From the NCBI RefSeq assembly GCF_026625785.1, contig NZ_CP113063.1, positions 868,001 to 932,000 of the forward strand: a DNA stretch of 64,000 nt. The letters are read 5' to 3'. This DNA is from Gordonia sp. SL306. GTDB taxonomy: Bacteria > Actinomycetota > Actinomycetes > Mycobacteriales > Mycobacteriaceae. This document shows, one piece after another, positions 33,782 to 64,000 of this stretch (positions within the stretch are counted from its first letter, which is position 1; every line of letters begins with the position of its first letter). The notes below the pieces were generated by a model that worked only from the letters and a program-made list of their open reading frames with translations, had not been told where the DNA came from and ran no database searches. The position numbers were made by a program, and so were the translations under genes.

Positions 33782-33860
33782 CGTCACAGCCACTCCCCCG
33801 ACCTTGTGATGTCGACCCTGGCCACTCTGCCTCCCAGTTCGAGCTGGCACCGGATCCTTC

Positions 33861-34038: not shown

Positions 34039-34281
34039 TCACTCCGACGCTGAGCCGCCCTGCGCAGCCTTGTCCGCCTCCATGGCGTCGATCAGGCTCT
34101 TCGGCCGCAGATCGGTCCAGTTCTGCTCGACGTACTCCAGGCACGCCGCACGGCTGTCCTCGCCGAAGACCTTGGTCCAGCCGGCCGGGATGTCGGCAAA
34201 CGTCGGCCACAGCGAATGCTGGTTCTCCTCGTTCACCAGCACGAAGAATCGGCCGTTCTCGTCATCGAAGGGATTCGTCAT
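34039..34281 (-). CDS. MbtH-like protein (second NRPS system)
   Basis: 80 residues with [14 protein letters not shown] and [17 protein letters not shown], the MbtH signature. It opens MTNPFDD like the first copy, but the two differ in many positions, and each follows its own NRPS. It should activate A domains of the 8,313-residue synthetase. Its ATG overlaps the NRPS stop (ATGA). The 257 bases after it, up to the small A-domain-like gene, hold an ATTGG-AGTGA-CCAAT inverted repeat (33979-33993) and no clear terminator. Confidence 0.95.
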
Positions 34282-40200: not shown

Positions 40201-43200
40201 CCGGGCAGGTCGACGACGCCGGCGGCGGCCGCGGTCACACCGTCGACTCCGAGCAGGGCCGCCTCGATCTCGCCGAACTCGATCCGGAATCCGCGCAGCT
40301 GCACCTGCGCGTCGCCGCGTCCCAGGTACTCGATGTCGTCACCCACGCGGCGAGCCAGGTCGCCGGTCCGGTACATCCTGTCGCCGTCGTGACCGAACGG
40401 GCTCGCGACGAACCGCGTCGTTGACAGGCCGGGACGGCCCAGATACCCCTGCGCCAGCTGGCCGCCGGTGACATACATCTCGCCGACCACGCCGGGCGGT
40501 ACGGGATGCAGGCGCTCGTCGAGGATGTGGATGGCGAGCGAATGCAGGGGGCGACCGATCAGCGAGGCGTCGCCCGCGGCGACCAGCGCACGGTCCAGTG
40601 GGCGGAAGCTGACATGCACGGTGGTCTCGGTGATCCCGTACATGTTCACCAGCTGCGGGGAGTCGCCGGGGTGGTCGTCGAACCATCGGCGCACCTGATC
40701 GAAACTCAGTGCCTCGCCGCCGAACACGAGATAACGCAGCGGGAGATCCACGGTGTTGCGGCGGCGCGCGTCGATCAGTTGATAGAAGGCCGACGGCGTC
40801 TGACTCAGGATCGTGACACCCTCGTCTGCCAGCAGCTCGACGAACGCGGCGGGATCTCGGGCGAGCTCGCGGTCGACGATGACCAGCCGACCACCCGACA
40901 GGAACGGCCCCCAGAGTTCCCAGACCGAGAAGTCGAACGCGTAGGAATGGAACATCGTCCACACGTCGGAGGGCTGGAATTCGAAATCGCCTGCCGCGGT
41001 GTCCATCAGGGTCACCACGTCCCGATGGGTGATCTCCACCCCCTTCGGCAGCCCCGTCGACCCGGAGGTGTAGATCACGTACGCCCGCGCCGACGGCGGG
41101 ATCACGACCGGCGGAACGGCCTGTGCGGCACCCTCGGCGACGAGATCGGCCACATGCACCGTCGCCACGTCCGCAGGCAGCACCGTGAACAGGTCATGTC
41201 CCGCGGTGGCCGCATCCGTGATCACGGTGCCCACCGCGGCATCCGAGACGATGAACGCCAGGCGCTCGGCGGGATTCGTCGTGTCGAGCGGTAGGTACGC
41301 CGCCCCCACCTTGAGCACACCCAGCACGGCGGATACCAGATCCACCGTGCGCGCGGTGGCCACCCCGACCAGATCGCCGACCCCGACACCACGGGCACCG
41401 AGCGCGGCGGCGACCGCGTCCGAACGCGTCTGCAGCGCCTCGTACGAGAGGGTGACCCCGTTCGCCGTGACCGCCTGTCGCCCACCGTGTGCGTCCACGG
41501 TCGACCCGAACAGTTCGACGAGCGAGCGACGGGTGTTGACGGTGTCGACGACGGGTGCCGGCAGCGCCGACAACTCGGCGACCTCGGAGGCCGACACGAT
41601 GGTGACGTCACCGACCGGCCGGTCGACCGAGTCGATGCACCCGGCGAGGACGCGCACGAACCGGTCAGCCATCGTCTCGATGGTCGATCGATCGAAGAGG
41701 TCGGTGGCGTAGACGATCTGGGCGGGCCAGGCCTGATCCGACGAGTCGGCTGCGATACCGAAGGTCAGGTCGACCTTGGCCGGGGTTTCGGGGGCCTCCA
41801 CCGGCGAGATCGTGAGGCCTGCGACCGTGGTCGGGCCGACGCCGGCCGCGAGCTCCGGCAGGGACGCCTGGTGGAAGGTCAGGAGGATCTGAGTCAGCGG
41901 CGCGAACGCCTCCGACCGGACGGGGTCCAGATGGTCCACCAACGCCTCGAACGGGACATCCGCATGGGCGAAGGCGTCGAGATCGGTCACCCGGACCTGG
42001 TCCAGGATCTCGGCGAACGACATCGTCGCGTCGATCTGGGTGCGCAGCACGAGGGTGTTGACGAACATGCCGACCAACGCGTCGAGCTCACGCCGGCCGC
42101 GACCCGCGATCGGGGTGCCGACCGCGATGTCGTCGGTTGCCGACAGCCTCGCCAGCAACACCGACAACCCGGCGTGCACCACCATGAACGGGGTCACGCC
42201 GAACTCCGTGGCCACCGTTGCTATCCGTTCGACCACCTCGGCGGGAACACGGAACGGGACCTGGTCGCCCCGTTGGCTCGCGACCACCGGGCGTGGGCGA
42301 TCCGACGGCAGCTCGAGGACGTCGGGCACCCCGGACAGCTGCTTGGACCAGTACGAGAGCTGTTGCGCCACCACGGAGTCGGCATCGCCCGCCGCGCCGA
42401 GTACCTCATGCTGCCAGATCGCGAAGTCCGCGAACTGCACCGCGAGCGGCGCGAATTCGGGCGCAACGCCTGCCGAGCGCGCCGCGTATGCCGCCATCAC
42501 GTCGCCGATCAACGGCGCCATCGACTCGCCGTCGGCCGCGATGTGGTGGGCCACCAGCGCGAACAGCCACTCGTCGCCGCCCACGTGCCACAGCCGCGCA
42601 CGCAGGGGCCAGTGCGCGGTCACGTCGAAGCCGGCGGTCACGTCCGCCTCGAGCGCCGCGGCGGAGTCGACGATCTCCCAGTCCAGCTGTTCGGCGATGT
42701 GGTCGACGGACGCGATCTCCTGGATCGGCGACCCGTCCACCGACGGGAACGTGGTGCGCAGCACCTCGTGTCGCGCCACCACGTCGACGAGCGCCGAGCG
42801 CAGCGCCGCGACGTCCAGCGCACCTGCCAGCCGCAAGACCACCGGCACGTTGTAGGTCGACGCCGAGGGATCGAACTGATTGATGAACCACATGCGCGAC
42901 TGCGCGAACGACAACGGCACCCGTTCGGGACGCGGGACGGCTGCCGTGACCGGTGCCAGCCCCAGCCCCCGACCGTCCAGGGACCTGGCCAGTGCACGGA
43001 CCGACGGCGCCTCGAAGACGTCGCGGACGGACACGTCGACTCCGGACACGTCCGAGACGCGAGCGGCCACCCGGGTTGCGGAGAGCGAGTTGCCGCCGAG
43101 CTCGAAGAAACTCTCCACGACGCTGACCGGCCCGATCCCCAGCACGTCGGCGAACACCCGCGCCACCGACTCCTCGGCCCCGGTGGCAGCAGCCACGAAC

Positions 43201-46200
43201 TCACGCCCGCTGTCGGCCTCCGGCTCGGGCAGAGCACGTTTGTCCAGCTTGCCGACCGGCGTCAACGGCAGTGCATCGAGCACCGTCAGACTCGACGGCA
43301 CCATGTGCGACGGCAGGCGCTGCCCCACAAAGGCCCGCAGCTCGCCGGCGTCGACGTGATCCCGGAGTACGACATAACCGGCCAGAGCGGTGGCCACCGA
43401 CCCGCCGACGCCGATCACGACCGCCGATTCGACCGCGGGGTGGGAGGCGAGGACCGCCTCGATCTCTCCCAACTCGATGCGCAGACCGCGGAGCTTCACC
43501 TGATCATCGCTGCGGCCCAGATAGTCGAGCACGAGCGCATCGGAACCGTCGCGTCGCCAACGCACGACATCGCCGGTGCGGTACAACCGCTCACCCTCGA
43601 CGCCGAAGGGGTTCGCGACGAACCGTTCCGAGGTCAGGCCGGACCGGCCAACGTACGCGCGGGCGAGTACCCCACCGGCGACGTACAACTCACCTGCGAC
43701 ACCCACCGGCACCGCGTGCAGCCGTGAATCCAGTACCAGGAGGGCGACTCCGGGGATGGGCCCACCGAGGGTCGTCGGCACGCCGGGGCGCATCGCGTCA
43801 CTCATCGCGACGACGATGGTCGTCTCGGTGGGGCCGTACATGTCGTGGAACCCGACCAGCGATCCCCAGCGATCGACCATCCCCGGCGGTACCGCCTCGC
43901 CACCGGCCGCCAGCACCCGCAGATCCGGCAGCCCCTCGGGTTCCAGGGTGGCCAGCACCGTCGGTGTCAGGAACGCGTGCGTCACCCGCTGCGTACGCAT
44001 GAAGTCGGCCAGCGGTTCCCCGCCGAGCGCCTCCTCGGGACGATAGACGAGCGTCGCACCCGCACCGACGGCCATCAGCCATTCCAGGACCGAGGCGTCG
44101 AAGCTCGGTGAGGCGAAACCCAGCACCCGTGACTGATCGGTGACGCCGAAGCGGTCGACCTCGGTCAGCGCGAAGTTCTCCAGTGTGCGGGCGGTGAGTT
44201 GCACACCCTTCGGTGTGCCGGTGGAACCCGACGTGTAGATCACGTAGGCGACGGCGTCCAGGTGTGGCGTGCCGATCAGTTCGTGCTCGGCCACCGGATC
44301 CGGACTCAGCTCATCGATCGCCGCCCGGGTCTCCGCGGAATCCATGGTGGCCCAGTCGACCATGGTTCCCAGGGCAGCCCGGTGACGCTCGGCGGTGAGG
44401 CCCACCCGGGCACCGGAGTCGGCCAGCATGTGCTCGATGCGCTCGATGGGATAGGCCGGGTCGATCGGCAGATGGCCGGCGCCGGTCTTGGCCACCGCCC
44501 AGATCGCGGTCAGCAGCTCGACCGACCGGCCAAGGGCCAGAGCCACCAGCGATTCGACGCCGACACCTTGCGAGATCAGCCATCGGGCAACCTGATTGGA
44601 TCGGGCGTCGAGGGCGTCGTAGGTCAGCGCCGCCCCCGTCGCGTCGACCACCGCGACACGGTCGTGATGGTTCTCGACGACATCGGCGAACATCGCACCG
44701 AGCAGCCGGGGTGGCGCGGCGGGTCCACCGCTGACCGGCACCAAGTCGGCCACCTCACCCGCCGTGAGCAGATCGATGTCGCCGACCGCGATGCCGGGAT
44801 CGTCCACCATCGACTCGACGATCCGCAGCAACGACGTCAGGAAGCCACGAACCGTCGACTCGTCGAAGAGCGAGCGCGCGTAGACGCCGTCGACGGTCAT
44901 CGGCGCCCCCGCCGTCCGCCCGGTCACCGCCACCGACAACTCGAACTTGGCCACCTGACCCGCCGATTCGAGTGGTTCCGCGCGCAGTCCCGCCGTCTCG
45001 AGGGCCGCCGTTGCCGGATCGGCGTCGACGTGGGTGTACGCGATCTGCGCGAGGGGCGGGAAGGCCGTCGACCTGGTCGGCGCGATCTCGTCGATGAGCT
45101 CTTCGAACTGCACGTCGGCGTTGGCGAACGCGTCGAGATCGTCGCCGCGCACCTTCGCGACGAGGTCGGTGACCGTCTCGGCCGGAGCCACCGCGGTGCG
45201 CAGTACCAGCGTGTTCACGAACATGCCGACCAGATCATCGAGCGCCGCATCCGTACGGCCGGCGATCGGCGTACCGATCACCACGTCGTCGGTCGAGGCC
45301 AGTCGTGCGATCAGGATCGCCAGTGCCACATGCATTGCCATGAACGGGGTGACGCCCTCGGCACGTGCGAACTCTTCCACCCGGCGGGCCAGTTCGTCGT
45401 CGACGGGCATCGACACCACACCGGCCGCGGTCTGCATCACCGCCGGGCGCGGTCGATCCATCGGCAGATCGGTCACCGACGGCAAGGCCCTGAGGTGCTC
45501 ACGCCAGTAGCCGAGCTGCTGTGCCATTCGGCTCGACTGGTCGTCGACATCGCCGAGCATCTTCCGTTGCCACAGTGCGTAATCGGCATACTGCACCGCA
45601 AGGGGAGGCGCGGCGGGGACGGATCCGTCGACCCGTACGAGATACGCGGACAGCAGGTCGCGGACGAACACTGCGGTCGACGATCCGTCGAAAGCGATGT
45701 GATGAGCGGTCAGCACCACGTCGTAGGTGTGGTCGCCGGAACGGCGCACGCACCCACGGATCGGCAGATCGACGGTCACGTCGAAGCCCTTCGCCGCCGA
45801 GGCCGCCACCTCCCCTTCGTCGTCCACCACACGCCAATCGAGCACATCGCGGGCTCGATCGGCGGCGAGGACGCGCTGGACGGGTCCGTCGCCGTCGAGC
45901 GGGTAGAGGGTGCGCAACACCTCGTGGCGTTCGATCACGTCGCCCAGCGCGCCCACCAGATCGTCGAGGTCGAGATCACCGGTCAGCCGCAGCGCCATCG
46001 GGATGTTGTACGCGGGCGACGCGGGGTCGAACCGGTTGATGAACCACATCCGCGACTGCGCCATCGACAGCGGCAGCCGATCCGGCCGCCGGGCCGCCAC
46101 CAAGGGCGCCACGGTCTGTGCACGGCCGGCCACCCCCTCGATCAGCGCCCGCACCGACGGGAACTCGAAGAGGTCACGTACCGAGACGTCGACACCCAGG

Positions 46201-49200
46201 TCGTCGGCCACACGCGCGGCGACACGCATCGCCGACAGCGAGTTCCCGCCGACCTCGAAGAAGGATTCGGTCACACCGACCCGCTCCACGCCGAGCACCT
46301 CACCGAACACCTCGGCCACCATCACCTCGGCCTCGGTGTCCGGTGCCACGTACTCGCCGAGCTCGAACACCGGGGCTGGCAACGCCTTCCGGTTGAGTTT
46401 GCCGGAGCTGTTGAGTTCGATGTCATCGAGGAGCATCCACACCGTCGGCCGCATGTACTCCGGCAACGCCTCCGCGACAACCGTCTTCACCGCGGCCTCG
46501 TCCACCGACGCGGGCGCCACATACGCGACGAGATGGTGGCCGCCGATGGGTGCGTCGACCACCGCACACGCCGCGTGCACCACGCCGGGTGCCGAGGCGA
46601 TCACCGACTCGATCTCGCCGAGTTCGATGCGCTGCCCACGCAGCTTCACCTGGAAATCGGTGCGGCCCAAATACTCGATCTCGCCGCGGGGATTCCAACG
46701 GACGAGGTCGCCGGTGCGGTACAACCGCTCACCGTGTCGGCCGAAGGGATCGGCCACGAACCGTTCTGCGGTGAGCGCGGGGCGTGAGGAGTAGCCGCGC
46801 GCCAGCTGCACGCCACCCAGATACAGTTCACCCGGCACGCCCTGCGGGACCGGACGCAGCCGCGAGTCCAGCACGTACGTCGACGTGTTCCACTCCGGCC
46901 TACCGATCGTGATCTCGTCGGCGCCGGTCACGTCGACGGCTGTCACGTCGACCGTGGCCTCCGTCGGACCGTAGAGGTTCACGATCTGCACACCCGGGAG
47001 TGCGCGGTGCGCGTGGCTCGCCACCGAGACGGGCAGCGCCTCTCCCGAGGTGAGCAGCCAGCGCAGTGTCCCGAGCACGTCCAACTTCTCGGCCGGGACG
47101 ACGTCCAGGAAGACCGACAGCATCGACGGCACGAAATGGACCGACGTCACGCGTTCGTGCGCGATGAGATCGGCGATGTAGACCGGTTCCAGGTGGCCGC
47201 CGGCGCGTGCCACGATCGTCGTGGCCCCGGTCATCACGGGAGCGAACAACTCCGGCACCGACACGTCGAAGGTGACCGGCGTCTTCAGCATCACCCGCTC
47301 GGCAGCGGTCCATTCGAAGATGTCCAGGCACCACCGCATCCGGTTCATCAGCGCGCGGTGCGACACGGTCACGCCCTTCGGGCGGCCGGTCGATCCTGAG
47401 GTGAACAGAGTGTATGCGGCATCATCGGAACGCAAGGGCGCCAGCCGATCCGCGTCGGTCACGATCGGTACCGACCGGTCGACCTCATCCGACGCGTCCA
47501 CCTCGATCGTCCGAACGCCGTCGACCGTCGCGGCGACGACGGCTCGTCCGGCACCGACGACGAGCACCCGGACGTGGGCGGTGTCGATCATGTACTCCAC
47601 GCGGTCGACCGGGGTGTCGGGATCGATCGGGACGTACTGCGCGCCTGCGGCCAGGACGGCATTCACCGCGACGACCATCTCCACCGAACGATCCAGCGAG
47701 ACCCCGACGGCCACACCCGGTCCTACGCCTGCGGCAATGAGCTCGCGGGCCAGCACCGCGATCCGCGCACCGAACTCGGCGTAGGACACTGTCCTGCTCC
47801 CGAACACCAGCGCGGCCGCGTCGGGTGTGCGGAGAGCCTGCGCGGCAACGGCATCCGGCACCAGGTCGGCGAGCACATCGACGACCGGCCCCAGCGACCA
47901 GCTCTCCACGACGGCGCGCTCGTCGGTGGACATCAAATCCACATCGCCGACCGAGGCGGCCGGGCTCGCGACCAGTTCCGTCAGCACCGACACGAACCGG
48001 TCGGCCATGATCTCGACGGTCGGGTGGTCGAACAGATCCGTCGCATAGACGATCGAGCATGCCCAGTCGCCGTCGGTCGCCGAACTCACCGTCACCGACA
48101 TGTCGAGCTGTGCGGCAACCCACGACGGCTCTATCGACTGGACCGACAGACCACCGACCGACAACTCGGCCGACTCCGCCGACGCGGCCGGATCGAAGGA
48201 CAGCATGACCTGTGCCAGCGGCGCGAATGCCTCCGAACGCGTTGGATTGAGCGCCTCGACGACGGTCTCGAACGGGACATCCGCATGTGCGAAGGCATCG
48301 AGATCTGTCTGTCGGACGTCGTCGAGCAGTGCAGCGAACGTCGTCGCGCTGTCGACCCGGCTCCGCAGGACCAGAGTGTTCACGAACATCCCGACGAGCG
48401 GGTCGAGCGCCGCCTGGCCACGCCCCGCGACAGGGGTCGCGATGGTGATGTCGTCGGTGGCCGAGAGCCGCGCCAGCAGGACCGCGAGACCGGCGTGCAC
48501 CACCATGAACGGCGTGACCCCAAATGCCGTGGCCACGACGCGGATCTGCCGGCCGAGTTCGACGGGCAGACCGAACCGGACGCGTGCGCCACGATGCGAC
48601 GCGACAGCCGGACGTTCCCGGTCCGCCGGGAGTTCGAGCACGTCAGGTGCGTCGACGAGTTGATCCCGCCAGTACGACAGTTGCCTGCCGATCACCGTGT
48701 CCGGGGCATCCGGCGACCCCAGCACGCTGTGCTGCCAGATCGCGAAGTCCGCGAATTGGACTGCCAGCGGCGCGAAGTCCGGTTCCCGGCCCGCTGCCCG
48801 TGCGACGTACGCGGATACGACATCGGTCACCAGCGGCAGCATCGACTCGCCGTCCGATGCGATGTGATGTGCGATCACGGCGAGCAGGTACTCATCGTCG
48901 GACACCATGAGCAGCCGTACCCGCAGCGGCCACTCGGCGGTCACGTCGAAGCCGGTCGTCATCGCCGTCTCCACGTCGGCCTGCCTGCCCACCACGGCCC
49001 AGTCCAGCCGTTCGGCCACCTGGTCGGCGGGATCGACCATCTGCACCGGCAGACCGTCGACGGCCGGGAAGGTCGTCCGGAGCACCTCGTGGCGCTCGAC
49101 GGTGTCGACCACCGCGGCGCGCAGGGCATCCACGTCGAGGGCACCCGACAGGCGGAGAACCGCCGGGATGTTGTACGTCGCGGTGCCGGGCTCGTACCGG

Positions 49201-52200
49201 TTGATGAACCACATGCGGGTCTGCGCGAACGACAACGGGATCGGCGCCGGTCGCGGGGTGACCGCCACGAGGGGCGCCAGACCCGCGCCACGCGACGAGA
49301 CCGCGGCCGCCAGGCCACGGACTGTCGGGGCGTCGAAGATGTCACGCACCGACACCGCGGCACCGAACTCGTCGGCCACCCGCGCCGCCACCCGCATCGC
49401 CGACAACGAGTTGCCGCCGACGGCGAAGAAGGACTCGGTCACGCTGACCTGCGCCACCCCGAGTACCGACGCGACGATCGCCGCGACGGATTCCTCGGCA
49501 TCGGTGGCCGGGGCGACGTACTCCGCGGTCTCGAAGACCGGGGCGGGCAACGCCCGCCGGTCCAGCTTGCCCGCGCTGTTGAGGGCGATGTCGTCGAGCA
49601 GCATCCACACCGAGGGACGCATGTACTCGGGCAACGCCTCGGCGACCGCCGCCCTGACCGCACCCTCGTCGACCGTGGACGGCGCGACATATCCGACGAG
49701 ATGCTGTCCACCGCCGTCGGTCTCGACGACCGTGCAAGCCACGTGCACCACTCCGGGCGCCGAGGCGATGACCGACTCGATCTCACCCAGCTCGATGCGC
49801 TGCCCACGCAACTTGACCTGAAAATCGGTGCGCCCCAGGTACTCGATCCCTCCAGTGTGGCTCCACCGGACGAGATCACCGGTCCGATACAACCGCGATC
49901 CCGCTGCCGCAGACCCGGCTGCACCGAAGGGGTCGGCCACGAAACGCTCGGCCGTCAGTCCCGGCCGCGACTCGTAACCGCGCGCCACCTGGACACCACC
50001 GAGGTAGAGCTCACCCGGGACGCCGGGCGGCACCATCCGCAGGCGGGCATCGAGGACCAGCGTCGACGTGTTCCATACCGGCACACCGATGGGCACCACG
50101 TCGGGCGCGTCGGTCACGTCCACGTACGCCACCTCCACGGCGGCCTCGGTCGGACCGAACAGGTTCACTATCGCGACCTGCCCGAGCAGCTGGTGGGCGT
50201 GCGCGACGACCGGCGGCGGCAGCGCCTCACCCGAGCAGAACAACCACCGCAACGAGTCCAGTGCGGTGATCTTCGTGGCGGGCACGACATCCAAGAACAC
50301 CGAGAGCATCGACGGCACGAAATGTACCGACGTCGCGCGCTCTCGGGCGATGAGATCGGCGATGTACATCGGGTCCGCATGCCCGCCCGGACGCGCCACG
50401 ATGATGGTCGCACCCGCCATCACCGGGGCGAACAACTCCGGCACCGACACGTCGAAGGTGAACGGCGTCTTCAACACCACCCGGTCGCCGGTCGACCACG
50501 GATACTGATCCAGGCCCCACCAAAGCCGATTCACCACCGAGCGGTGCGAGACCGTGACGCCCTTCGGACGGCCGGTCGACCCCGAGGTGAACAGCGTGTA
50601 GACCGCGTCGTCGGCGCGCAACGGGGCCAACCGATCCGCATCCGTCACCGGCGCGACCGACAGGTCGACGGCACCCGAGGCGTTCACCTCGATCACGGTG
50701 GTGCCCGTGCCCAGCGCGTCCACCGACGCGGGCGCACCATCGCCACCGACCAGGACCACCCCGACGCCCGCGGTGTCGACCATGTACTGCACGCGATCCG
50801 CCGGGATCGCGGGATCGATCGGCACGTAATGCCCGCCCGCCGCGACGACGGCATGGATCGCGACCACCAGCTCCACCGATCGGTCCAGCGAGACCCCCAC
50901 GGCCACACCGGGAGCCACGCCTGCCGCGATCAGCTCGCGCGCCAGCACCGATACCCGCGCACCGAATTCCGTATACGTGAGTGCGCGGCCGTCGAAGACG
51001 AGTGCGGTCTCGTCGGGTGTCCGAAGGATCTGCGCGGCAACGGCATCGGCCACCGAACCAACCGGGACGCGGACGTCGGCGCCGACCGACCAACCGGCGA
51101 TCACCGCCCGGTCCTCGTCGGTCAGCAGGGGCACGTCGGCGACGAGCGTCCCAGGCGCAGCGGCAGCGGCACGCAGGATCTCGACCACGGCGTCCGCGAA
51201 CACGCGGATCTGGTCGTCGGCGAAGGCATCCGGCAGGTACTTGATGGTGATCGACAACCGGTCGCCCATCGGCGAGGTGATCATGTTCAACGGGTAATGC
51301 GTCGAATCGCTGACCACGGCCTCCCGGATGTCGAGGCCGCCGGTGAGAGCGGCGTCGCTGGTCGAGAGCGACTCGGTGTCGACCGGATACGACTCGTGCA
51401 CGGTCAGTGTGTCGAAGGAGCCCGCAGCATCTGTCAGGGCCATCAGTTCCGGCAGCCCCAGGTGCTGATGGTCGAGAACCGACACCTTCGCCGCCTGCAG
51501 GCGCGCCAGCACCTCCGAGATCCGGGCCGACGGGTCGACGTCGACCACCGCAGGCAAGGTGTTGATGAACAGCCCGACCATCGACTCGACACCCTCGAGG
51601 TCGGCCGGACGGCCCGACACCGTCTCGCCGAAGGTGACCACCCGGTTGCCGGTCAGCCGGGACACCAGCACCGCCCACGCGAACTGCAGAACCGTCGCCA
51701 CGGTCGCGCCCTGCGCCCGCGCGAGCGCCTCGACGGCAACGGTCAACTCGGCATCGACCACCACGACGTGGTTCCGCGGCAACGACTCCCGGGTCGCCAC
51801 GCTGCCCGGTGCCACCAGCGTCGGGCCCTCGACCGGCGCCAGGACCGCACGCCACGCTGCAAGCCCGGCGTCGTCGTCAATGCCTGCGACGTGTTTCAGG
51901 TAATCCTCGAAGTCGCCGCCGCCCGTGCCGATCCGGCCGGTGTAGGTGGCGCCCGAGGCGTACAGCGCCAGCAGGTCGGCGAGCACCAGCGGACCGGACC
52001 AGCCGTCGAACAGGATGTGATGGTTCGTGATGACGACACTCACGCCGTCGGCATCGCGGGCGAGCACGACACGCAACAGCGGCGGCCTCGACAGATCGAA
52101 CGGCTCGACCCGCTCCCCCGCGGTGATCTCGTCGACCCGGACCTTCCGCTCGGCATCGTCGATCGCACCCAGGTCGACCGTGCGCCAGGGCACCCGGACC

Positions 52201-55200
52201 TCGTCGGGTACCACCGCGACAACCGCACCACCATCGGTCTGCACGAAGCCCGACCGCAACACGCGATGATGGGCCACCAGGCTCTCCACCGCTGCCCGCA
52301 GACGTGACTCGTCGACATCGCCGCCCAGTCGCAGGACCGCCTGGCTCACGTACACGTCGACGTCGTCGGTGCCCGCACCCGAGGAGAGAGCGGACTGGAG
52401 GTAGAGCCCCTTCTGCAGGGCGGACAGGGGCCATACCGGTGCACCGGGGTGACGCTCGGCGAGGGTGTCCAGGTCGGCCTGTGTCACACCGGAACCCGAG
52501 ACGTCCGACGGCGACAGCCCGGGATTCTCACCACGCGTGACCACATCGACGATGGCGGCCAGCTCGGCCGACCACCGGTCGGCGAGATCCTCGACATCCG
52601 CCGCGGACAAGATCCCACCGGCGAACAGGAAATCCGCCGACAGTTCACGGCCGCGAGGCGTGAGCTGCGTCCCGACGTTCACGGTGATGGTGTTCATCGC
52701 GGTCATGCCGCCGGCCACCGACGACGGCAGGGCCGGAGCATCGGTGTCGACCATGAACGGGACCGCCACCGTGCCGGCGTCCGCGCCGCGCCCGCCGGCA
52801 CCGAAGAAATTGAATCCGATCGACGGCAGCGGTCGTCCGGCCAATCGCTCGTCCCCGCCGAATCGGAGCGACCCGAACCCGATTCCGTGATCGGGCTGGG
52901 CGAGCCGCTCCTCCTTGGCCGCCTTCACCGCGTGCACCACGTCGTCGGCCGGGTCCACGAGCATCGGGGCGATCGAGGTGAACCATCCCACCGTCCGTGA
53001 CAGATCCGCGGTCCGCGGGTCGGCACCGTGCGCGAGCACGTCCTCGTACCGGCCGTGCCCTTCGACCAGCACGCCGACCGGCGCGGAGTCCGAGATCCCC
53101 CGCGCTCGTTGCCAGGAGCGCACCGCACGCGCCAGGCCCGCCAGCAGCGCATCGTTCACATGACCGGAGAACGCCTCCGGGACCACCGTCACCAACGCCT
53201 CGGTGACCGCCGCATCGACTCGGTGCGACACCGATCCCACCGTCGAGAATCGGTCGCGCGCAGGGTCGATGGCAGCGCCGAGGTCGGTCGGGTCACCCGA
53301 CCGCGACAACCAGTGGCCGACCTCGGCGCGACGATCGGATCGCCGGTGCGCCAGCGCCGCGTGCCATGCACGCGCCGAGGTGACCTCCGGCCGCACCGTC
53401 AACTCGTCGCCGGACACCAGCTGTCCCCACACCGTGATCACGTCTTCGATCAGCACCGGCCACGACACCGCGTCCACGCCGAGATGGTGGATGGCCACCA
53501 CCACCCGCGCACCGTCGGCGCCCGCCACCAGCACAGTCGAGACCAGCACGCCGTTCGACGGATCCATCCGCCCCAGGGCCTCCGCATGCGCCGAGCGCAC
53601 CGCGTCGGCGAACTCCGGTGTCCCGGTCGCCGCGGGCGTCGTGACCTCGGCGACCACCGGAGGATGACCGACTCCCGCGGTCTGGCACCACCGGCCCCCG
53701 GTGAACACCAGGCGGGAGGACAACATCGGGTGCGCATCGACGACCGTGCCGAGCACCGCACTGAGCACGGCGGCGTCCAACGCATCCGGCGCCACCAGCA
53801 CCACCGACTGCGAGAAGTCGGCGAAATCCTCAGGCGTGCCTGCCGACTCCAGCATCCAGGACACCACCGGCGACAGTTCCACCTCGCCGGTGGCGCCGCC
53901 GGCCGGTTCGTCGATCATGGGCACCCGGTCGCCACCGGCCGCGAGCGCGCGGGCCATCGCACGCACGGATTTGTGTTCGAACACCTCTCTCGGTGACACC
54001 GACAACCCGGCCGCGCGGGCCGCCGACGACAGCTGGATCGACAGGATCGAATCACCGCCGAGCGCGAAGAACGACTCGACGACGCTCACCCGATCGACGC
54101 CGAGAACCCCCGCCACGATCGCGGCCAGCGTCTCCTCCACCGACGACGACGGCGGGACGTGGTCGGCGGTGTCGGTGGCGACCACCGGTGCGGGCAGGGC
54201 GCGCTTGTCCAGCTTTCCTGCCGGGGTCAGCGGCAGGGCGTCGAGCACCGTGATGCTCGACGGCACCATGTGGGGCGGCAGGCGTTCGGCGACATGATCG
54301 CGCAGCGATGCGACGTCGACCGCCCGATGGGCGACCACATAGCCCGCCAGCGCCGTCGCCACCGAGCCGCCGAGACCGACCACCACAGCCGACGAGACGC
54401 CCGGATGAGACTCCAGGACAGCCTCGATCTCCCCCAGTTCGATGCGCAACCCGCGCAGCTTCACCTGGTCGTCGCTGCGCCCCACGTACTCGAGCACCAG
54501 CTCGTCCGCCTCGGTGCGGCGCCACCGGACGACATCGCCGGTGCGATACATCCGATCGCCCCGGTCGCCGAACGGATTCGCCACGAATCGTTCCGACGTC
54601 AACGACGGGCGCCGCAGATACCCGCGGGCGAGCGCCACACCGGTCACATACAGGTCACCGGGCACTCCGACGGGGACGGGGTGCAGCCTGCCGTCGAGCA
54701 CCAGCAGCCCCACACCGTCGATCGGGCCACCGATGTGGACGGGCGAGCCGGGTGTGAGCGCGCGACTCATCGCCACGGCGATCGAGGCCTCGGTCGGACC
54801 GTAGGCGTTGAAGAAGGACGGCCCTGCCGACCACCGGTCGACCAGGGTCTGCGACACCGCCTCACCACCGGACATCAGGACGCGGAGGTCCGGCACCGAC
54901 TCCGGCTCGAGGGTCGCGAGCACCGTGGGGGTCAGGAACACGTGGGACAGTCTCTGGTCGCGGATCAGCGCCGCCAGCATGTCGCCGCCGAGCACGCTGT
55001 CCGGCCGGTACACAAAGGTCGCGCCGGACGTCGACGCGAGCAGCCATTCCAGGATCGACGCATCGAAACTGGGAGAGGCGAATCCGAGAACCCGAGACGA
55101 TGCGGCGACGCCGAACCGGGCGACCTCCGCGACCGCGAAGTTGTGGATTCCCCGATAGGTCACCGACACCCCCTTCGGGGTGCCCGTCGAACCCGACGTG

Positions 55201-58200
55201 TAGATCACATAGGCGATGGCGTCGAGCCGCGGTGCGGCAAGCAACTCGTCGACCCGCAGCGGCGCGTCGTCGAATGCGCCGATCTCCCCGGATCCGATGT
55301 CCTCCACCGGGCTCCACCGCACCTCCGTCGGCAACGCCGACCGCAGCCGCGTGGTCGTCAGTCCGGTCCGCACCTGCGAGTCGGCGAGCATGTGCTCGAT
55401 CCGCTCGGCGGGATAGTCCGGATCGATCGGCAGGTAGCCCGCACCGGTCTTGGCCACCGCCCACATCGCCGTCAGAAGTTCGACCGATCTCCCGATTGCC
55501 AGCGCGACAAGGGATTCGGTGCCGATCCCCTGCGCGATCAGCCATCGCGCCAGCCGGTTGGAGCGGGCATCCAGCTCGGCATAGGTCAATTCGGCCCCGT
55601 GCCCGTCGGACACCGCGAGGTGATCCGGGTGCGCTCGGGCGATCTCGTCGAACACCTCGGCCAGCAGCCGCGGGGCCGCCACCGCGCCGCCGGTGACCGG
55701 AAGCAGCGCCGAGGCCTCGTCGTCGGCGAGCAGAGAGGTGTCACCGATGGGCAGAGCGGGATCGAGGGTCAGCTGGTCGAGCAGCCGGACCAGTTGTGCG
55801 GCCATGTGCTCGGCGGTCGGGGCGTCGAACAGGTCGACCGCATAGATCAGCGAGCCGTGCCACCTGTCACCGCCGTCCGTGATGCCGACGGTGAGATCGA
55901 CCTTCGCCGGAACACCCTCGACAGCTATCGAACTCACTTCCAGGCCCGCGACGTCCTCGGTGAGGACGCCACCCTGGGCGAACTCCGCGAGCACCGACTG
56001 GTCGAAGGACAGCAGGACCTGTGTGAGGGGGGCGAACGCCTCCGACCGCACCGGTTGCAGATGCTCCACCACCGTCTCGAAGGGCACATCCGCGTTCGCG
56101 AACGCCTCGAGATCGGTGAGCCGCACCTGATCCAGCACGTCGACGAACGACATGGCCGCGCCGACGCGCGTCCGCAGCACCAGCGTGTTGACGAACATCC
56201 CCACCAGTGGGTCCAGCACCCGCTGACCGCGACCCGCGATCGGCGTGCCCACCGCGATGTCGTCGGTCGCCGACAACCGGCCCAGCAACACCGCCAGCCC
56301 TGCGTGCACCACCATGAACGGCGTCACGCCGCGCTCGCGTGCCAGCACCGAGATCCGGTCGACCACCCAGGTGGGCACCTCGAACGAGACCTCCGCGCCA
56401 CGCTGCGACGCGACCACCGGACGAGGCCTGTCCACGGGGAGTTCGAGGACGTCGGGGACCCCGGCGAGTTGCGTCGACCAGTAGGCGAGCTGACGTCCGA
56501 CCACCGAATCGGCATCGTCGGCAGAACCCAGCACCTTGTGCTGCCAGATCGCGAAGTCCGCGAATTGCACGTCGAGGGGCGCGAACTCGGGCTCGGCTCC
56601 CGACACCCGCGCCGAGTAGGCCGCGACCACATCGGCAACCAGTGGCCCCATCGACTCACCGTCGGCGGCGATGTGGTGAGCCACGAGGCCGAACACGTAC
56701 TCGTCTGCCGAGGTGCGCCACAGCCGTGCCCGTAGCGGCCACTGCGACGTCACGTCGAAGCCGGCCGCTATCGCGGCCTGCAGTTCGTCGCCCGAATCGA
56801 CCACTGCCCAGTCCAGTCGTTCGGCGACCGCCTCGGCCGGATCGACCACCTGCACCGGAACGCCCTGCCGAGCGGGGAACGTCGTGCGCAGCACCTCATG
56901 TCGGATCACCACGTCCGTCAGGGCGGCCCGCAGCGCATCCACGTTCAGAGCGCCCGCCAGACGCAGCAGCACCGGGATGTTGTACGTCGACGCCGACGGA
57001 TCGAACTGGTTGATGAACCACATCCGCAGCTGCGCGAACGACACCGGCACGTCGTCCGGCCTCGGCTGCACGGGCGTGACGGGCGCGAGCGCGACGCCAC
57101 GCCCGCCGACCACGTCGGCGAGGCCGCGCACCGACGGCATGTCGAACACATCGCGCACCGTCAGATCCACGTTGAAGGCCTCACCTGCGCGCCCGACGAT
57201 GCGGGCCGCGGCCAGGGAGTTGCCGCCGAGGTCGAACACCGAGTCGGCGACGCTGACCCGTTCGAGTCCGAGCACGTCCCCGACGATCTCGGCGAGGATC
57301 TTCTCGGTCTCGGTGCCGGGTGCGACATACTCGGCCACCGTGAGGATCTCGGGTTCGGGCAATGCCCGGCGATCCAGTTTTCCGTTCACCGTGAGCGGCA
57401 GCTGATCGATCAGCATCACCACGTCGGGCACCATGTAACTCGGCAACGCGCCTGCCGCTGCGATGCGGATCTCGGATGCGGCCACGTCGGTGTCGGCCTC
57501 GAGCACCACGTAACCCACCAGGAGTTCGTCGCCGTTGTCACGCTGCCGGACCGCCACCGCGGCCGCGTCGACCCCGTGGGTGGCCAGCAGCGCCGACTCC
57601 ACCTCGCCGAGCTCGATGCGGAAGCCGCGCAGTTTCACCTGCGCATCCGACCGACCGAGGTACTCCAGGGTCCCGTCTCGCCGGATCGCGAGGTCGCCGC
57701 TGCGATACATACGCGTTCCGTTGCCGGCGAACGGATCGGCGACGAATCGTCCCGACGTCAGCCCTGGCCGACCGAGGTAGCCCCGCGTCACCTGCGTGCC
57801 ACTGACATAGATTTCGCCCGGGACTCCGTCGGGCACCGGACGGAGTCGGTCGTCGAGCACATGGATCGTCAACTCGGGCAGGCCTTCACCCACATCCGAG
57901 CCCTTGGCGGACGCGACGAAGCCGGGGTCCAGTGCCCGGAACGTGGAGTGCACCGTGGTCTCGGTGATCCCGTACATGTTCACCAATACGGGGCCAACGG
58001 CCCCCTGCGCCTCGAGCCGGTCCTCGTACCACCGGCGCACCTGCGTGAAATCCAGGGCCTCACCGGCGAACACCATGTACCGCACACTCGCGGGCAACCG
58101 GTTGCGCGACGACGGCCGTACGGCCGCGGCCAGCTGGTAGTACGCCGACGGCGTCTGCGAGACCACCGTGACCGACTCCGTGTCGAGCAGCTCCGCGAAC

Positions 58201-59219
58201 TCGTCCGGACTACGGGTGGTCAGGAAGTCCACCACCACCAACCGTCCGCCGAACAGCAGCGGTCCCCACATCTCGAATACCGACACGTCGAACGCATACG
58301 AGTGGAACATCGTCCACACGTCGGCCTCGGTGAACCCGTAGTGCCGCTGAGCAGCCGACATCAACGCGATCACGCTACGGTGTTCCACCACCACCCCTTT
58401 GGGGCGACCGGTGGAGCCCGACGTGAAGATCAGGTATGCGGCTTGCCTAGGGTCGATCGACGCGGGGAGCGAGTCGGTCCCCGACGCGCCTGCCGCCATG
58501 AGTTCGTCGACGGTGCTGCGCTCGACGTCGAGGAAGCCGAGTGTGTCCCGTCCGTCGCGGTCGGTGATGATCAGCGACGGTGCGGCGTCCGCGACGACGA
58601 ACGAAAGACGCTCGGCCGGATGTGACGTGTCCAGGGGCAGATAAGCCGCGCCGGACTTCAGAATGCCGAGGATCGCGACCATCACCTCGACGGTCCGTGG
58701 GGTGGCCAGTCCGACGACACCCCCTTCCTCGACCCCGGCGGCGAGCAGCCCGGCGGCGACGGCATCCGACCGCTGGTCGAGCTCGCGATAGGTCAGCGCA
58801 GCGCCGTCGAGATCCGTCACCGCCACGTGCTCGGGGAACCGGTGGACCGCCGAGCGGAAGATCCCCGGCAAGGATCCCCAGTCCGACGTCCCGGCCACCG
58901 CGCAGGCGCGCCCGCGGATCTCCTCGAGCGCAACCTGTGTCGCGGTGGCGATCCCCGCCGGGTCGAGACCGTCGCGAGGGATCAGTGCGGTCACGATTGC
59001 GCTCACCGCGGCCTCGGTGTCGAGGCCCCGGGCGGCGAACACCGCCGCGGTCGCACTCACACGCGTGTTCAGATCGGCGAAGGTGGTGCCCCCACCGGCA
59101 TCCGACAACGCGACGGTCTCCGGCTCGATCTGCGCAGCAATGGTGATCAGGTCTCGCGTCGGCGGACGCCGTCCCCATCCCGTAGAAATGTCCACCGCGT
59201 CCACACCGCTCCCCGTCAC
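34278..59219 (-). CDS. Seven-A-domain non-ribosomal peptide synthetase with two epimerases and thioesterase
   Basis: 8,313 residues: stub-A1-T1-C-A2-T2-E-C-A3-T3-C-A4-T4-C-A5-T5-C-A6-T6-E-C-A7-T7-TE. TSG cores lie near residues 267, 1342, 2879, 3941, 4998, 6052 and 7612. Carrier GGNS/GGDS are near 664, 1722, 3269, 4327, 5376, 6446 and 7991. E-domain [10 protein letters not shown] is near 1914 and [10 protein letters not shown] near 6635; both follow GGDSI-type carriers and precede C domains with HHILFDG/HHILIDG. TE GWSLGG is near 8120. Codes by PheA alignment: A1 DVFSVAMVHK; A2 DALFMGAIAK; A3 DVPHFSLVEK; A4 DVPHLSLVDK; A5 DALFAGMIVK; A6 DFWSVGMVHK (threonine-like); A7 DALFMGLIGK. Residues 2 and 6 of this chain should be D-configured. 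It starts without a C domain, because the partner C is at the end of the upstream NRPS. GTG 59219 overlaps that gene's stop; its own stop overlaps mbtH. Confidence 0.93.
58885..59165 (-). other. N-terminal A-domain-like stub of the large NRPS
   Basis: Residues about 20-112 of the large [24 protein letters not shown] and [17 protein letters not shown] follow the first strands and helix of an A domain, then the match ends in a different helical segment ([28 protein letters not shown]). The true A1 begins right after, with [18 protein letters not shown]. It lines up with the C-terminal stub of the upstream NRPS and with the free-standing protein at 33473-33781. Confidence 0.7.
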
Positions 59220-62200
59220 GTCCGTTCGCTACCTTCCGCCTCGACCGAATCCGTAGGGTTTTCGCCGCCCGCGGCGCCACGATTCCGGCGGCCGCCGGCG
59301 ATCACGCCATGGGCACGCTCACGGAGCTCGGCCAGGAGTCCGTCGAAACCTTCCGGGCCGGATTCCGCCAGCCCGGGAACAAGTGTCATGAGAGCCATCG
59401 TCAGCGCCGAATCCGCATCGGACGCTGCGGGATTCATCGCGCTGGTCATCATTTCGAGATCTCCGAAGCCGAGTGCTGCGCGACCACCGACCGCGGTGGC
59501 GGTGCGATCGATCGCGGCGGCCTCGAAGACCAGTGCGGCCAGACTCTCGTCCGCGTCGTCCACCGGCAATCCGGCCGCGGCCACCACCTCGTCGTCGAGA
59601 CGGATGCTCACGTCACCGACCACACACTCCGGATTGTCCGCGACCCCCTCGAGCAGCTGGAGGTACCGTAGGGCCATCCGCTCGATCGTCGACCGATCGA
59701 AAAGATCCGTGGCATAGAGGAATTGCGCGCGCAGCGCACCCCCGTGCTCGTCCCGGTCCGGATCGTTCGGGAAGAGGGTGAGCTGCAGGTCGACCTTGGC
59801 CGATGCCAGCTCCTCGTGTATCGGTTCGACCGTGAGCCGGTCGAACTGCAGCGTCGGGAATTCCACGTCCTGGAACGCCAGCATCACCTGATAGACCGGG
59901 TTGTAGGAGGTGGGTGGTTTGGGCAGCGTCCGGGACACGATGTTCTCGAATGCGACGTCGGTGTGCGACATGTCGGCGAGATCGTCGTTGCGCACGCGCT
60001 CGAGCAGGTCGACGAACCGCTCGCCCGGGCGCACCCGGGTCCGCAGGGCCAACGTGTTGACGAACATCCCCACCACATCATCGAGGCTCTGCTCGCCGCG
60101 GCCGGCGAACGGCGTTCCGATCACCAGGTCGTCGCGGCCGGAGATCCGGTTCAACAGCATCGCGAACGCGGCGTGGATCACCATGAACGACGTGGTGTGA
60201 TGTTGCCGCGCAACGATGTCCAGATTCGCCACCACAGACGCGGGGACCTCGAAGTTCACCGTGTCACCGCGGAAACTCGGCGTCTTCGGCCTGGCATGGT
60301 CGTGGGGCAGCTCCAACAGCTCGGGCGCCCCCGCCAACCGCTCGTCCCAGTAACCGAGTTGACGCTCCTCCTCGGTGATGCCGTCGCCGTCGGTGACCGC
60401 CAGACGTTCCGACAGCCAGAGGCTGAAGTCCGCGTACTGCACCGGAAGGGGTTTCCATGCCGGCTCGGCCCCGGCGCTGCGCGCCGCGTATGCCGTCATC
60501 AGATCCCGTGCCAGTGGCGCCATCGACGCCCCGTCCGCGCTGATGTGGTGGACCACGAAGACCAGGATGTGCTCGTGCGCAGAAGCCTTGAGCAGCACCG
60601 CTCGTACCGGCGGCCTGGTGGTGATGTCGAATCCCTCACCGGTGACCTGACCGATGGCCGACTCGATCGATGTCGTGACGGTGCGCTCCTCGATGGTCAG
60701 CTCGCTCTCGACCACGTCGGCAGGCATGATCACCTGGATCGGCTCGTCCTTGATCATCGGATAGGTCGTGCGCAGCGATTCGTGCCTGCGCACGATGTCC
60801 GCGGTCGCGAGTTGCAACGCGACGACATCGAGGTCGCCTGCCAGCCGCAGCGCCATGGCGACGTTGTAGGCCGCGGACCGGGGATCGGCACGGTTGACGA
60901 GCCACAGTCCACGCTGCATCCCGGACACCCGCACCAGCTCCGCCCGACTGCGCGCGAGCAACGGCGGGGCACCGTGCCCGGTCGGACCACCGGCGAGAGC
61001 CTGCCCCAGCGACGACACCGTCGGACGCTCGAACAGCAGCTTCACCGGTACCTGTCGATCCAGGAGCGCGGAGAGCCGGGAGGTCACCTTGGTCGCCGAG
61101 AGCGAACTGCCACCGAGGTCGAAGAAGTCGGCGTCGGCACCGACCCGGTCCTGGCCGAGTACCTGGCCGAAGATGCCCGCGACGACCGCCTCCATCTGCG
61201 AACTCGGCGCCCGGTACGGCGCGGACACGCTGAAATCCACCGGCGGAAGGGATTTCCGGTCGATCTTGCCGGCCGTGGTCAACCGGAACTCCTTCACGAT
61301 CACCACCGCGTGCGGAACCATGTATCCGGGCAGTTGCGCGGCCGCGTGTTCGAGTATCCGCTTGGGCTCGGCCGTCGCGCCCTCGACCAGTCGCGCGTAG
61401 GCCACCAGCACGTCGTCGCCGCCCGGCCCGGGCACCCCTAAGCTCACCACCTCGGTCACCAAAGGGTGATGCAGGATCGCGGCGTCGACCTCGCCCGGCT
61501 CGATCCGCAGTCCGCGGATCTTGAGCTGGAAGTCGGTGCGGCCCACGTACCGGAGATTTCCCGACGCCGTTCGTACCGCCCGGTCGCCCGTGCGATACAT
61601 CCGATCCCCGGCGGAGAACGGGTTCGCCACGAATCGGGTGGCGGTGAGATCGCTCCGGCGGTGATACGCACGGGCGAGCTGGGCCCCGGACAGATACAGT
61701 TCGCCGGGCACCCCGACGGGGACCGGGCGAAGAGTGTGATCGAGCACCAGGCCGCCGACTCCCGGCACCGCCTGCCCGATCGTGACCTCGTCGCCCTCGT
61801 GCAGGGGGCCCGCTGCGGTGGCCCAGATGGTCACCTCGGTCGGGCCGTACAGGTTGAAGAACGCCCGGCCGGCCCGCGCCCACTTCCGCATCAGGTCGGG
61901 GGGACATGCCTCGCCGACGCTGATCACGCGGCTCAGGCTGGGTACGGCGGCCGGTTCCAGCGTGCCGAGTGCAGACGGCGTCATGACCGCGTGGGTGACC
62001 CGATGCCGGTCGATGAGCTCGGCGAGCTCGTCGCCGCCGAACACCCCCGCCGGGCTGACGACGAGCTCGGCACCCGTGCACAGCGCCATCAGGATCTCGA
62101 AGATGGACGCGTCGAAACTCGGCGACGCTACGTGCAGCACCCGGGAGCGCTGGTCGAGGCGCAGGATCTTCTGCTGATTCGCCACCACGTTCGCGAGCCC

Positions 62201-64000
62201 GACATGACTGAGCGCGGCCGCCTTCGGGCGTCCGGTGGAACCGGAGGTGTAGATCAGGTATGCGAGGTCGTCCACGCGCGGGGCACGCCGGAGCTCGCCC
62301 GTGTGCAGGCGCGCACCGCTGTGACCGGCCAGTTGTAGCTCCACCGCTGCGTCGTCGACCTCCAGCCAGGAGACACCCTCGGGTGCCTTGCCCCGGACGG
62401 CGGTCGACGTCAGTCCGAGGGCAGCGCCGCTGTCCGAGAGGATCTCCGCGAGCCGTGACGGCGGATGGCCGGGGTCGATGCTCACGAACGCGGCTCCCGA
62501 CTTGACCACCGCGACCATCGCGAGCACCGAGAGATGCGAACGCGGGATGCAGATGGCGACCAGGTCACCCGGGCCGAGACCACGGGCGACCAGTTCCCGC
62601 GCGAGTTGGTTCGACACCACTTCCATGGTCGACCACGTGATGGTGGACGTGCCGCTGATCGCGACCGCCGCCGGATTCGCGTGCACCACTCCGGCGACCA
62701 GCAGGTCGCGCAGCGTCTCCGGCATCACCCGCGATTCCGGAGGTGCGATCAGCGCCGCCCGCTCCTCACCTGCCACGAGATCGATCGTGCCGACGGGCCG
62801 GGCAGGCGATTCGATCATCGTCCACAGGACCGTGACGAGTTGCGTCGCGACCCGCTCGATCGTCCGGTGGTCGAAAATGTCGGCAGCATAGGCGAACTCC
62901 ACGTCCAGACCCGTTCCGCCGACCTGATCGGTGACCGTGACGGAGAGATCGAACTTGGCGGCGGGCACCCGAGCGTCGAGCATCTCGGCCGACTCGACCC
63001 AGTCCCCGAGCGCCGTCGCCTGCCCCGGATGCATCGTCAGCGCCACCTGGAACAACGGGGTGTGGGCCGCCGATCGTTCGGGGGCAACGGCTTCCACGAC
63101 CCGCTCGAACGGGATGGACGAGTGCCGCATCGCCCGCGTACGGGTGGTGTGCGCCCGGTCGAGCAGCTCGGCGGTCGTGTCCTCCGGGCGCATCGATGTC
63201 CGCAGCACCACGGTGTTGACGAACATGCCGACCAGGTCGGCGGTCGCGGGCTCGTCGCGACCGGCGACGGCCGTCCCGATCGCCACCTCGTCCACCTCGG
63301 CCCACCTCGCGAGCAACACCGCGAACGCGGTGTGCACCACGGAGAACGGGGTGACGTTGTGATCCCTGGCGAGTGAGCGGATACCGGCCGCGAGGTCGGC
63401 GTCGAACACCGTGTCGACGTATCCGCCGTTACCCGTCGCGACGTGTGGCCGCGGATGGTCGGTCGGCAATGGCAGGAAGCCCGGGAGTCCGGAGAGTTCC
63501 TCCTCCCAGAAGGCCAGACCCTCCCGGGCGAGGGGGGTCGGGTTCTCCGGGTCACCGAGGAGCCGGTGCTGCCAGATCGCGAAGTCGGCGTACTGCACCG
63601 TCAGCGGCGGCAATGCCGGCCTGCCGCCGGAGCGCCGCGCGCTGTAGGCCACGAAGAGATCGCGGATGAGCGGCACCAACGAGAATCCGTCGCCTGCGAT
63701 GTGGTGGAGCACCACCACCACGACGTACCCGGTCTGATCGCGGAGAATCCTCGCGCGGAACGGGATGTCGTGCGCCAGGTCGAATCCTCGGGCCGCCTCC
63801 GCGGCGACCGTCTCGTCGACCCCCTCGTCGACGACCGCGACCTCGATGTCCAGAAAGCCCATCGCCTCGGCTCGCGACAAGATCTCCTGCACGGGCTCGC
63901 CGCCCACAGACGCAAACCTGGTGCGCAGGGTCTCATGGCGATCGACCAGGTCACCGAGTGCTCCTTGCAGAGCAGCGACGTCGACCTCGGTCCCGAGCCG
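59216..64000 (-). CDS. Non-ribosomal peptide synthetase, C-terminal part (5' end outside window)
   Basis: 1,594 residues are visible; the start lies beyond the right edge. Order: C (HHIAGDG, near residue 100 of the visible part), A ([11 protein letters not shown] near 587), T (GGSSL near 964), C (HHISADG near 1152), then a stub. The A-domain code by PheA alignment is DAFVIVLIWK, which I cannot assign. Its A3 motif reads PKAAA where PKGV is usual. The last C domain has no A-T behind it; these lie at the front of the next protein, so one module is split over two polypeptides. Its stop overlaps the GTG of the large NRPS (GTGA), giving one operon that runs on to mbtH. Confidence 0.92.
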   Translation of the reverse strand, partial: RLGTEVDVAALQGALGDLVDRHETLRTRFASVGGEPVQEILSRAEAMGFLDIEVAVVDEGVDETVAAEAARGFDLAHDIPFRARILRDQTGYVVVVVLHHIAGDGFSLVPLIRDLFVAYSARRSGGRPALPPLTVQYADFAIWQHRLLGDPENPTPLAREGLAFWEEELSGLPGFLPLPTDHPRPHVATGNGGYVDTVFDADLAAGIRSLARDHNVTPFSVVHTAFAVLLARWAEVDEVAIGTAVAGRDEPATADLVGMFVNTVVLRTSMRPEDTTAELLDRAHTTRTRAMRHSSIPFERVVEAVAPERSAAHTPLFQVALTMHPGQATALGDWVESAEMLDARVPAAKFDLSVTVTDQVGGTGLDVEFAYAADIFDHRTIERVATQLVTVLWTMIESPARPVGTIDLVAGEERAALIAPPESRVMPETLRDLLVAGVVHANPAAVAISGTSTITWSTMEVVSNQLARELVARGLGPGDLVAICIPRSHLSVLAMVAVVKSGAAFVSIDPGHPPSRLAEILSDSGAALGLTSTAVRGKAPEGVSWLEVDDAAVELQLAGHSGARLHTGELRRAPRVDDLAYLIYTSGSTGRPKAAALSHVGLANVVANQQKILRLDQRSRVLHVASPSFDASIFEILMALCTGAELVVSPAGVFGGDELAELIDRHRVTHAVMTPSALGTLEPAAVPSLSRVISVGEACPPDLMRKWARAGRAFFNLYGPTEVTIWATAAGPLHEGDEVTIGQAVPGVGGLVLDHTLRPVPVGVPGELYLSGAQLARAYHRRSDLTATRFVANPFSAGDRMYRTGDRAVRTASGNLRYVGRTDFQLKIRGLRIEPGEVDAAILHHPLVTEVVSLGVPGPGGDDVLVAYARLVEGATAEPKRILEHAAAQLPGYMVPHAVVIVKEFRLTTAGKIDRKSLPPVDFSVSAPYRAPSSQMEAVVAGIFGQVLGQDRVGADADFFDLGGSSLSATKVTSRLSALLDRQVPVKLLFERPTVSSLGQALAGGPTGHGAPPLLARSRAELVRVSGMQRGLWLVNRADPRSAAYNVAMALRLAGDLDVVALQLATADIVRRHESLRTTYPMIKDEPIQVIMPADVVESELTIEERTVTTSIESAIGQVTGEGFDITTRPPVRAVLLKASAHEHILVFVVHHISADGASMAPLARDLMTAYAARSAGAEPAWKPLPVQYADFSLWLSERLAVTDGDGITEEERQLGYWDERLAGAPELLELPHDHARPKTPSFRGDTVNFEVPASVVANLDIVARQHHTTSFMVIHAAFAMLLNRISGRDDLVIGTPFAGRGEQSLDDVVGMFVNTLALRTRVRPGERFVDLLERVRNDDLADMSHTDVAFENIVSRTLPKPPTSYNPVYQVMLAFQDVEFPTLQFDRLTVEPIHEELASAKVDLQLTLFPNDPDRDEHGGALRAQFLYATDLFDRSTIERMALRYLQLLEGVADNPECVVGDVSIRLDDEVVAAAGLPVDDADESLAALVFEAAAIDRTATAVGGRAALGFGDLEMMTSAMNPAASDADSALTMALMTLVPGLAESGPEGFDGLLAELRERAHGVIAGGRRNRGAAGGENPTDSVEAEGSERT
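59310..59568 (-). other. C-terminal A-domain-like stub of the upstream NRPS
   Basis: After the final C domain (ending GDVSIRLDDE) comes ESLAALVFEAAAIDRTATAV, GGRAALGFGDLEMMTSAM and then DSALTMALMTLVPGLAESG with GFDGLLAELRERAHGVI. The first 40 residues copy the opening of an A domain (linker helix, 'R.TAV.g', 'l.f.dLe'); the remaining A domain is absent. A disordered Gly/Arg/Glu tail of about 30 residues ends the protein. Confidence 0.7.

Follow-up and report, generated by a model that had tools for sequence, protein, structure and literature searches.

A putative docking domain pair of adenylation-domain descent at split C/A joints of nonribosomal peptide synthetases

Introduction

When a nonribosomal peptide synthetase (NRPS) module is cut between its C domain and its adenylation (A) domain and spread over two proteins, what holds the halves together? 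The question is raised by an NRPS operon in the stretch of DNA analysed here (the window, 64,000 nucleotides, G000:C1:868001-932000 of a 5.36-Mb genome), where the facing ends of two consecutive synthetases each carry a short extra segment, here called a stub. Engineers have long aimed to split an NRPS module between its C and A domains and then rejoin the pieces, and a natural paired element located exactly at that cut could serve this aim directly. In the portions of a docking review cited here (PMC9113145), the NRPS docking classes named are COM, PAX and beta-hairpin (bHD) domains, and an A-domain-derived docking class is not described. A text search of the open-access literature returned no description of such a stub domain.

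Results

Architecture of the split joint. The operon lies on the minus strand, as do all features given below in window coordinates, and encodes a 2,693-aa NRPS, an 8,313-aa NRPS, an MbtH-like protein and a small ORF. Only the 3' part of the upstream NRPS is in the window (59216..64000); the whole gene, G000:C1:927216-935297, begins outside it and encodes 2,693 aa with three C domains, two A domains and two T stretches by Pfam. Its last C domain (59594..60934; PF00668, residues 1023-1469 of window:59219-64000) ends at residue 1,469 of the 1,594 encoded in the window, leaving 125 residues beyond it. In the downstream NRPS (34278..59219, 8,313 aa), Pfam analysis of the first 1,100 residues placed the first A domain from residue 121 (AMP-binding part PF00501, residues 121-482; 57774..58859), followed by T and then C. 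The Pfam layout of the two proteins thus gives the joint order C-stub // stub-A-T-C. The two genes overlap by 4 nt: the C-stub gene stops, and the N-stub gene starts, within a GTGA (59216..59219). An earlier note on this DNA had proposed that a C/A-T module is cut here between two NRPS proteins, and the ORFs and Pfam order bear this out; the stub motifs it quoted, SALTMALMTLVP / AELRERAHGV and the facing pair of the other stub, are present in the sequence. Downstream, the start of the gene for the MbtH-like protein (34039..34281, 80 aa; PF03621, E 9e-30) overlaps the NRPS stop, and the small 125-aa ORF that follows (33473..33850) is a free stub protein by its profile hits, with the domain at about 33515-33790.

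Predicted fold. The joint spans 58893-59542. AlphaFold2 places the folded part of the C-stub, about 90 residues, at 59273..59542 (residues 23-112 of window:59219-59608) and that of the N-stub, also about 90 residues, at 58893..59159 (residues 21-109). The C-stub model, built from 36 sequences, has a mean pLDDT of 76.3 (core blocks 81-93) and predicted elements H23-33, E38-40, H48-61, H65-76 and H81-112. The N-stub model, built from nine sequences, has a mean pLDDT of 83.5 (core blocks 88-95), with elements H21-31, E36-38, H47-63, H70-79 and H87-109. Both models follow the same predicted order, helix-strand-strand-helix-helix-helix, so the lack of a common fold that would have refuted the earlier proposal did not emerge. 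These confident models, and the existence of family members as free proteins, are consistent with a small folding unit. In a comparison with the PDB, the N-terminal parts of A domains and acyl-CoA ligases ranked top, with weak matches.

Homology between the stubs and to A domains. The window's own stubs (N1 and C1) gave no significant BLAST match to each other (E 0.84). Each has one strong further copy in its own genome, 66 kb away, where a 2,700-aa NRPS ends at 993300 and a giant NRPS starts at 993303. N1 and N2 are 48.7% identical over 115 columns, and C1 and C2 45.2% over 168. Across sides, BLAST matched N1 to C2 (E 5e-6) and N2 to C1 (E 9e-4), and N2 to C2 gave no match. Compared as profiles of 85 N-stubs and 85 C-stubs, the two sides show homology along their full extent (hhalign 98.9%, E 1.2e-17, 93 columns; like the other hhalign figures, a single profile-profile comparison). 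Against A-domain openings, the N-stub profile scored 97.5% over 60 columns (7-66) and the C-stub profile 95.1% over 56 (7-62). Because this match covers only about the first 60 columns, the stub can be described as an A-domain opening joined to a different second half. The earlier note was correct that both stubs contain an A-domain-like part; its extent is 60 and 56 columns, not the approximately 90 residues suggested. The last two helices are common to the N, C, inline and free forms of the domain and have no sequence match in A domains. With only about 90 residues, and without the A3 loop or a substrate pocket, the stub shares sequence homology with the A-domain N-terminus and is not a complete adenylation domain with catalytic core motifs. 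Among Pfam matches, the N-stub aligned to AMP-binding profile positions 4-50 of 384, below the curated cut-off, the C-stub had no AMP-binding match, and neither matched a docking family.

Paired joints across the family. Searched against 401 genomes of the family at E <= 0.001, profile A1 (N) matched 226 and A2 (C) 123, with ordinary A domains making up many of the weaker A1 hits. Genus g1 is taken to be Gordonia, since the closest named records with the N-stub are G. hankookensis at 96% identity, G. rhizosphera at 77% and two further Gordonia species at 74-75%. Both profiles find a match in 51 of the 53 genomes of this genus; the other two, G257 and G315, match neither. The placement is that of docking elements, on the facing termini of consecutive subunits: C-stub then N-stub was found in all 65 loci of the first searches (L019-L083), a count that includes joints reached from both sides twice. 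An automatic pair test was passed by 117 of 129 loci; all were located via stubs, so the pair counts give no share of stub-less split joints. These 117 loci resolve to 86 distinct joints, other genera of the family included, in 85 of which the C-gene stop lies 26-232 nt ahead of the N-stub match (823 nt in the remaining one). Two more split joints are L187 and L188. Such stubs are thus present where further C/A-T modules are split in related genomes, as the idea in the earlier note demanded. Among the 12 loci failing the automatic test, inspection by eye reveals the pair at five (four joints: L032 with L064, L156, L157 and L163). At six others (L098, L121, L127, L137, L141 and L161) no C-stub adjoins the N-stub NRPS, and at L114 no N-stub was recognised beside the C-stub. 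Among the matches listed from 394 genomes of the class, all reaching profile position 94 or beyond belong to this family, and those from outside it end at position 81 or earlier, like A domains. Read by eye, the gene before the N-stub NRPS seems to stop inside an A domain at L137 and L141, and upstream of the one at L161 is a gene whose end is thioesterase-like.

Inline and free forms. The stub domain is also found inline: in unsplit NRPSs some 11,300 aa long, it lies in cis between the C and A domains. This placement was read by eye for two copies each in G040 (g10) and G120 (g18), for one copy in each of four g23 genomes and for the 18 internal loci L169-L186. In 18 of 20 genomes, chosen mostly for having such hits, an ORF of 11,274-11,944 aa carries the domain; 17 of the 18 have two full-length matches, 6.7-7.0 kb apart, and G017 has one. 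In G042 and G027, split pairs stand in place of the giant inline ORF. Two A domains separate the inline stubs of G040, placing them two modules apart. By eye, the last domain of the 11,316-aa NRPS of this genome (G040:C4:238361-272308) seems to be of C/E type with no thioesterase after it, and glycosyltransferase-like ORFs lie nearby.

Small ORFs with the stub domain follow mbtH in both clusters of the genome studied here. In G040, mbtH is flanked by one C-like and one S-like free protein, with a third match beyond the NRPS, and similar small-ORF pairs occur at L084-L092. At least 49 of the 53 Gordonia genomes (g1) have a small ORF with the domain (three with an internal stop codon; few were read in context). 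In the two joint-less Gordonia genomes, G257 and G315, the matches listed for small stub ORFs are weak ones alone. The C-stub profile aligns with 34 free C-like proteins at 99.4% over 93 columns (hhalign). None of 37 related proteins has a Pfam domain; those with a name are mostly called "hypothetical protein" and come chiefly from Williamsia, with some from Gordonia and one from a Mycobacterium MAG. Free S-like ORFs (L084, L087, L089-L091) have a C-terminal tail like EIDLRxIASRL that is missing from fused stubs and may be a short binding motif.

Selection, co-variation and history. Relative to four relatives, dN/dS is 0.20-0.37 for the N-stub and 0.11-0.31 for the C-stub, compared with 0.09-0.14 for the C and A domains beside them, which evolve at about half the rate of the stubs. 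They are under purifying selection, looser than that on the catalytic domains. Across 85 joints, N-stub distances track C-stub distances with a correlation of 0.835. Once the flanking C and A domains are controlled for, a partial correlation of 0.41 is left, or 0.42 if cubic terms are added, with 0 of 2,000 permutations in each case, and it is 0.49 in 1,266 close pairs (a value without permutation). Covalent neighbours gave 0.54 (N-stub with A) and 0.49 (C-stub with the C domain). Of the cross controls, C-stub with A gave -0.06, 0.01 and 0.05, and N-stub with the C domain 0.24 (linear), 0.36 (cubic) and 0.28, a non-zero background. With 0.41-0.42 for the pair against controls of up to 0.36, a pair signal lies on top of shared history and this background. 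Two trees rooted on A domains, each on 97-98 columns and with many forks open, place an inline lineage beside the root and the N, C, free C and free S proteins in separate groups. The N-stubs may be of one origin, as may the C-stubs together with the free C proteins, which tree tests do not reject, and two duplications may lie behind the stub groups.

Discussion

We consider it probable, at roughly 65%, that the stubs are a pair of docking domains which descend from the A domain and serve modules split between C and A. The proposed family consists of domains of about 90 residues, each an A-domain opening (helix-strand-strand-helix) extended by another two helices. Where a module is split, one copy would close the C-carrying protein and a diverged copy would open the A-T-carrying protein. 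The C-stub and N-stub would then bind each other, most likely as a pseudo-symmetric heterodimer, an arrangement that would suit homologous, equally built partners, and thereby keep the two halves of one module, C in one chain and A-T in the other, in contact. The inline copies hint that the domain first served at the boundary of C and A, and the free proteins may act on a contact surface that they would share with the stubs, either as competitors or as bridges. Docking of split ends cannot be the sole role of the domain, because inline copies in unsplit NRPSs and free proteins occur.

The earlier note had left two readings side by side, a docking pair or a C-A interface kept on each side. Co-variation beyond the flanking domains leans to docking. 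The docking reading is supported in part, since binding is putative, the domain also occurs where nothing must dock, in its inline and free forms, and some N-stub NRPSs have no C-stub next to them. A structural role at the boundary of C and A, as a spacer or a cap that replaces the A N-terminus beside C or spaces C from A without any stub-stub binding, would explain why inline copies sit exactly between C and A and why the first half is homologous to an A-domain opening. We regard it as unlikely, given that a copy is kept on both sides of split joints, that the N side has a stub despite the complete A domain after it, and that the two sides co-vary. The A-domain homology would also be expected of functionless scars left by gene breakage. 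This is very hard to reconcile with dN/dS values of 0.11-0.37, with last two helices that are common to all four forms and unmatched in A domains, with confident predicted folds and with recurrence across genera.

That free stub genes adjoin mbtH in both clusters of this genome and in G040, and that small stub ORFs are so frequent in Gordonia, would fit a landing site for a trans partner (a free stub protein or MbtH) that tunes the adjacent A domain, subunit docking being achieved elsewhere. Yet in the g23 genomes that were searched whole, the full-length matches among those listed are all in large NRPSs and none is in a small ORF, so it seems that an inline stub need not be accompanied by a free stub protein, and we hold this explanation to be rather improbable. 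It is also doubtful, though conceivable, that stubs of different lineages pair generally as a staple of NRPS lines in this family: between chains at split joints, inside the single chain of some 11,300 aa, and also with the free proteins. Pairing of two inline copies within a chain would loop out or fold the two modules between them, and free stub proteins would cap, switch or bridge the contact.

Taking the docking pair as the preferred reading, the stubs resemble the COM, PAX and bHD domains, as these are described in the cited portions of PMC9113145, in being small elements on facing ends, the upstream C-terminus and the downstream N-terminus. They differ from them, on the same description, in that the cut falls between C and A of one module and not ahead of a C domain, and in that both sides are homologous, about 90 residues long, of A-domain descent and also found in inline and free forms. 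Identity with a COM domain was rejected: COM is a helix-hand docking onto the following C domain at E/C or T/C, whereas the stubs lie at a C/A cut, with an A domain after the N-stub. On the bHD side, where the docking fold is a beta-hairpin, the stubs have a predicted helix-strand-strand-helix-helix-helix order and, among their Pfam matches, no docking family. Another comparable system is trans-AT PKS split-module docking, for which the cited portions of the review (PMC9113145) give a four-helix bundle and DHD domains; there, too, element pairs lie at a cut inside a module, but the enzymes are others and the PKS elements, compared by description, are shorter or unrelated. Docking elements are known as a kind, and the stub family, its place within the module and its three forms look new. 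With one domain in inter-chain, inline and free form, it also becomes possible to test how giant NRPS lines maintain their order, both between chains and inside one.

The second giant NRPS (G000:C1:939609-993303, L015-L018), outside the window, is present as a 1,770-aa ORF overlapping a 16,465-aa ORF in another frame near 988-989 kb. A relative, G243, has a single 17,953-aa frame where this NRPS is two ORFs, and the two-ORF state reads as a frame break or a sequence error. Between the two stub NRPS clusters, on the opposite strand (L015:8798-11741), lie ORFs that look from their reading like a transporter set with ATP-binding and membrane components.
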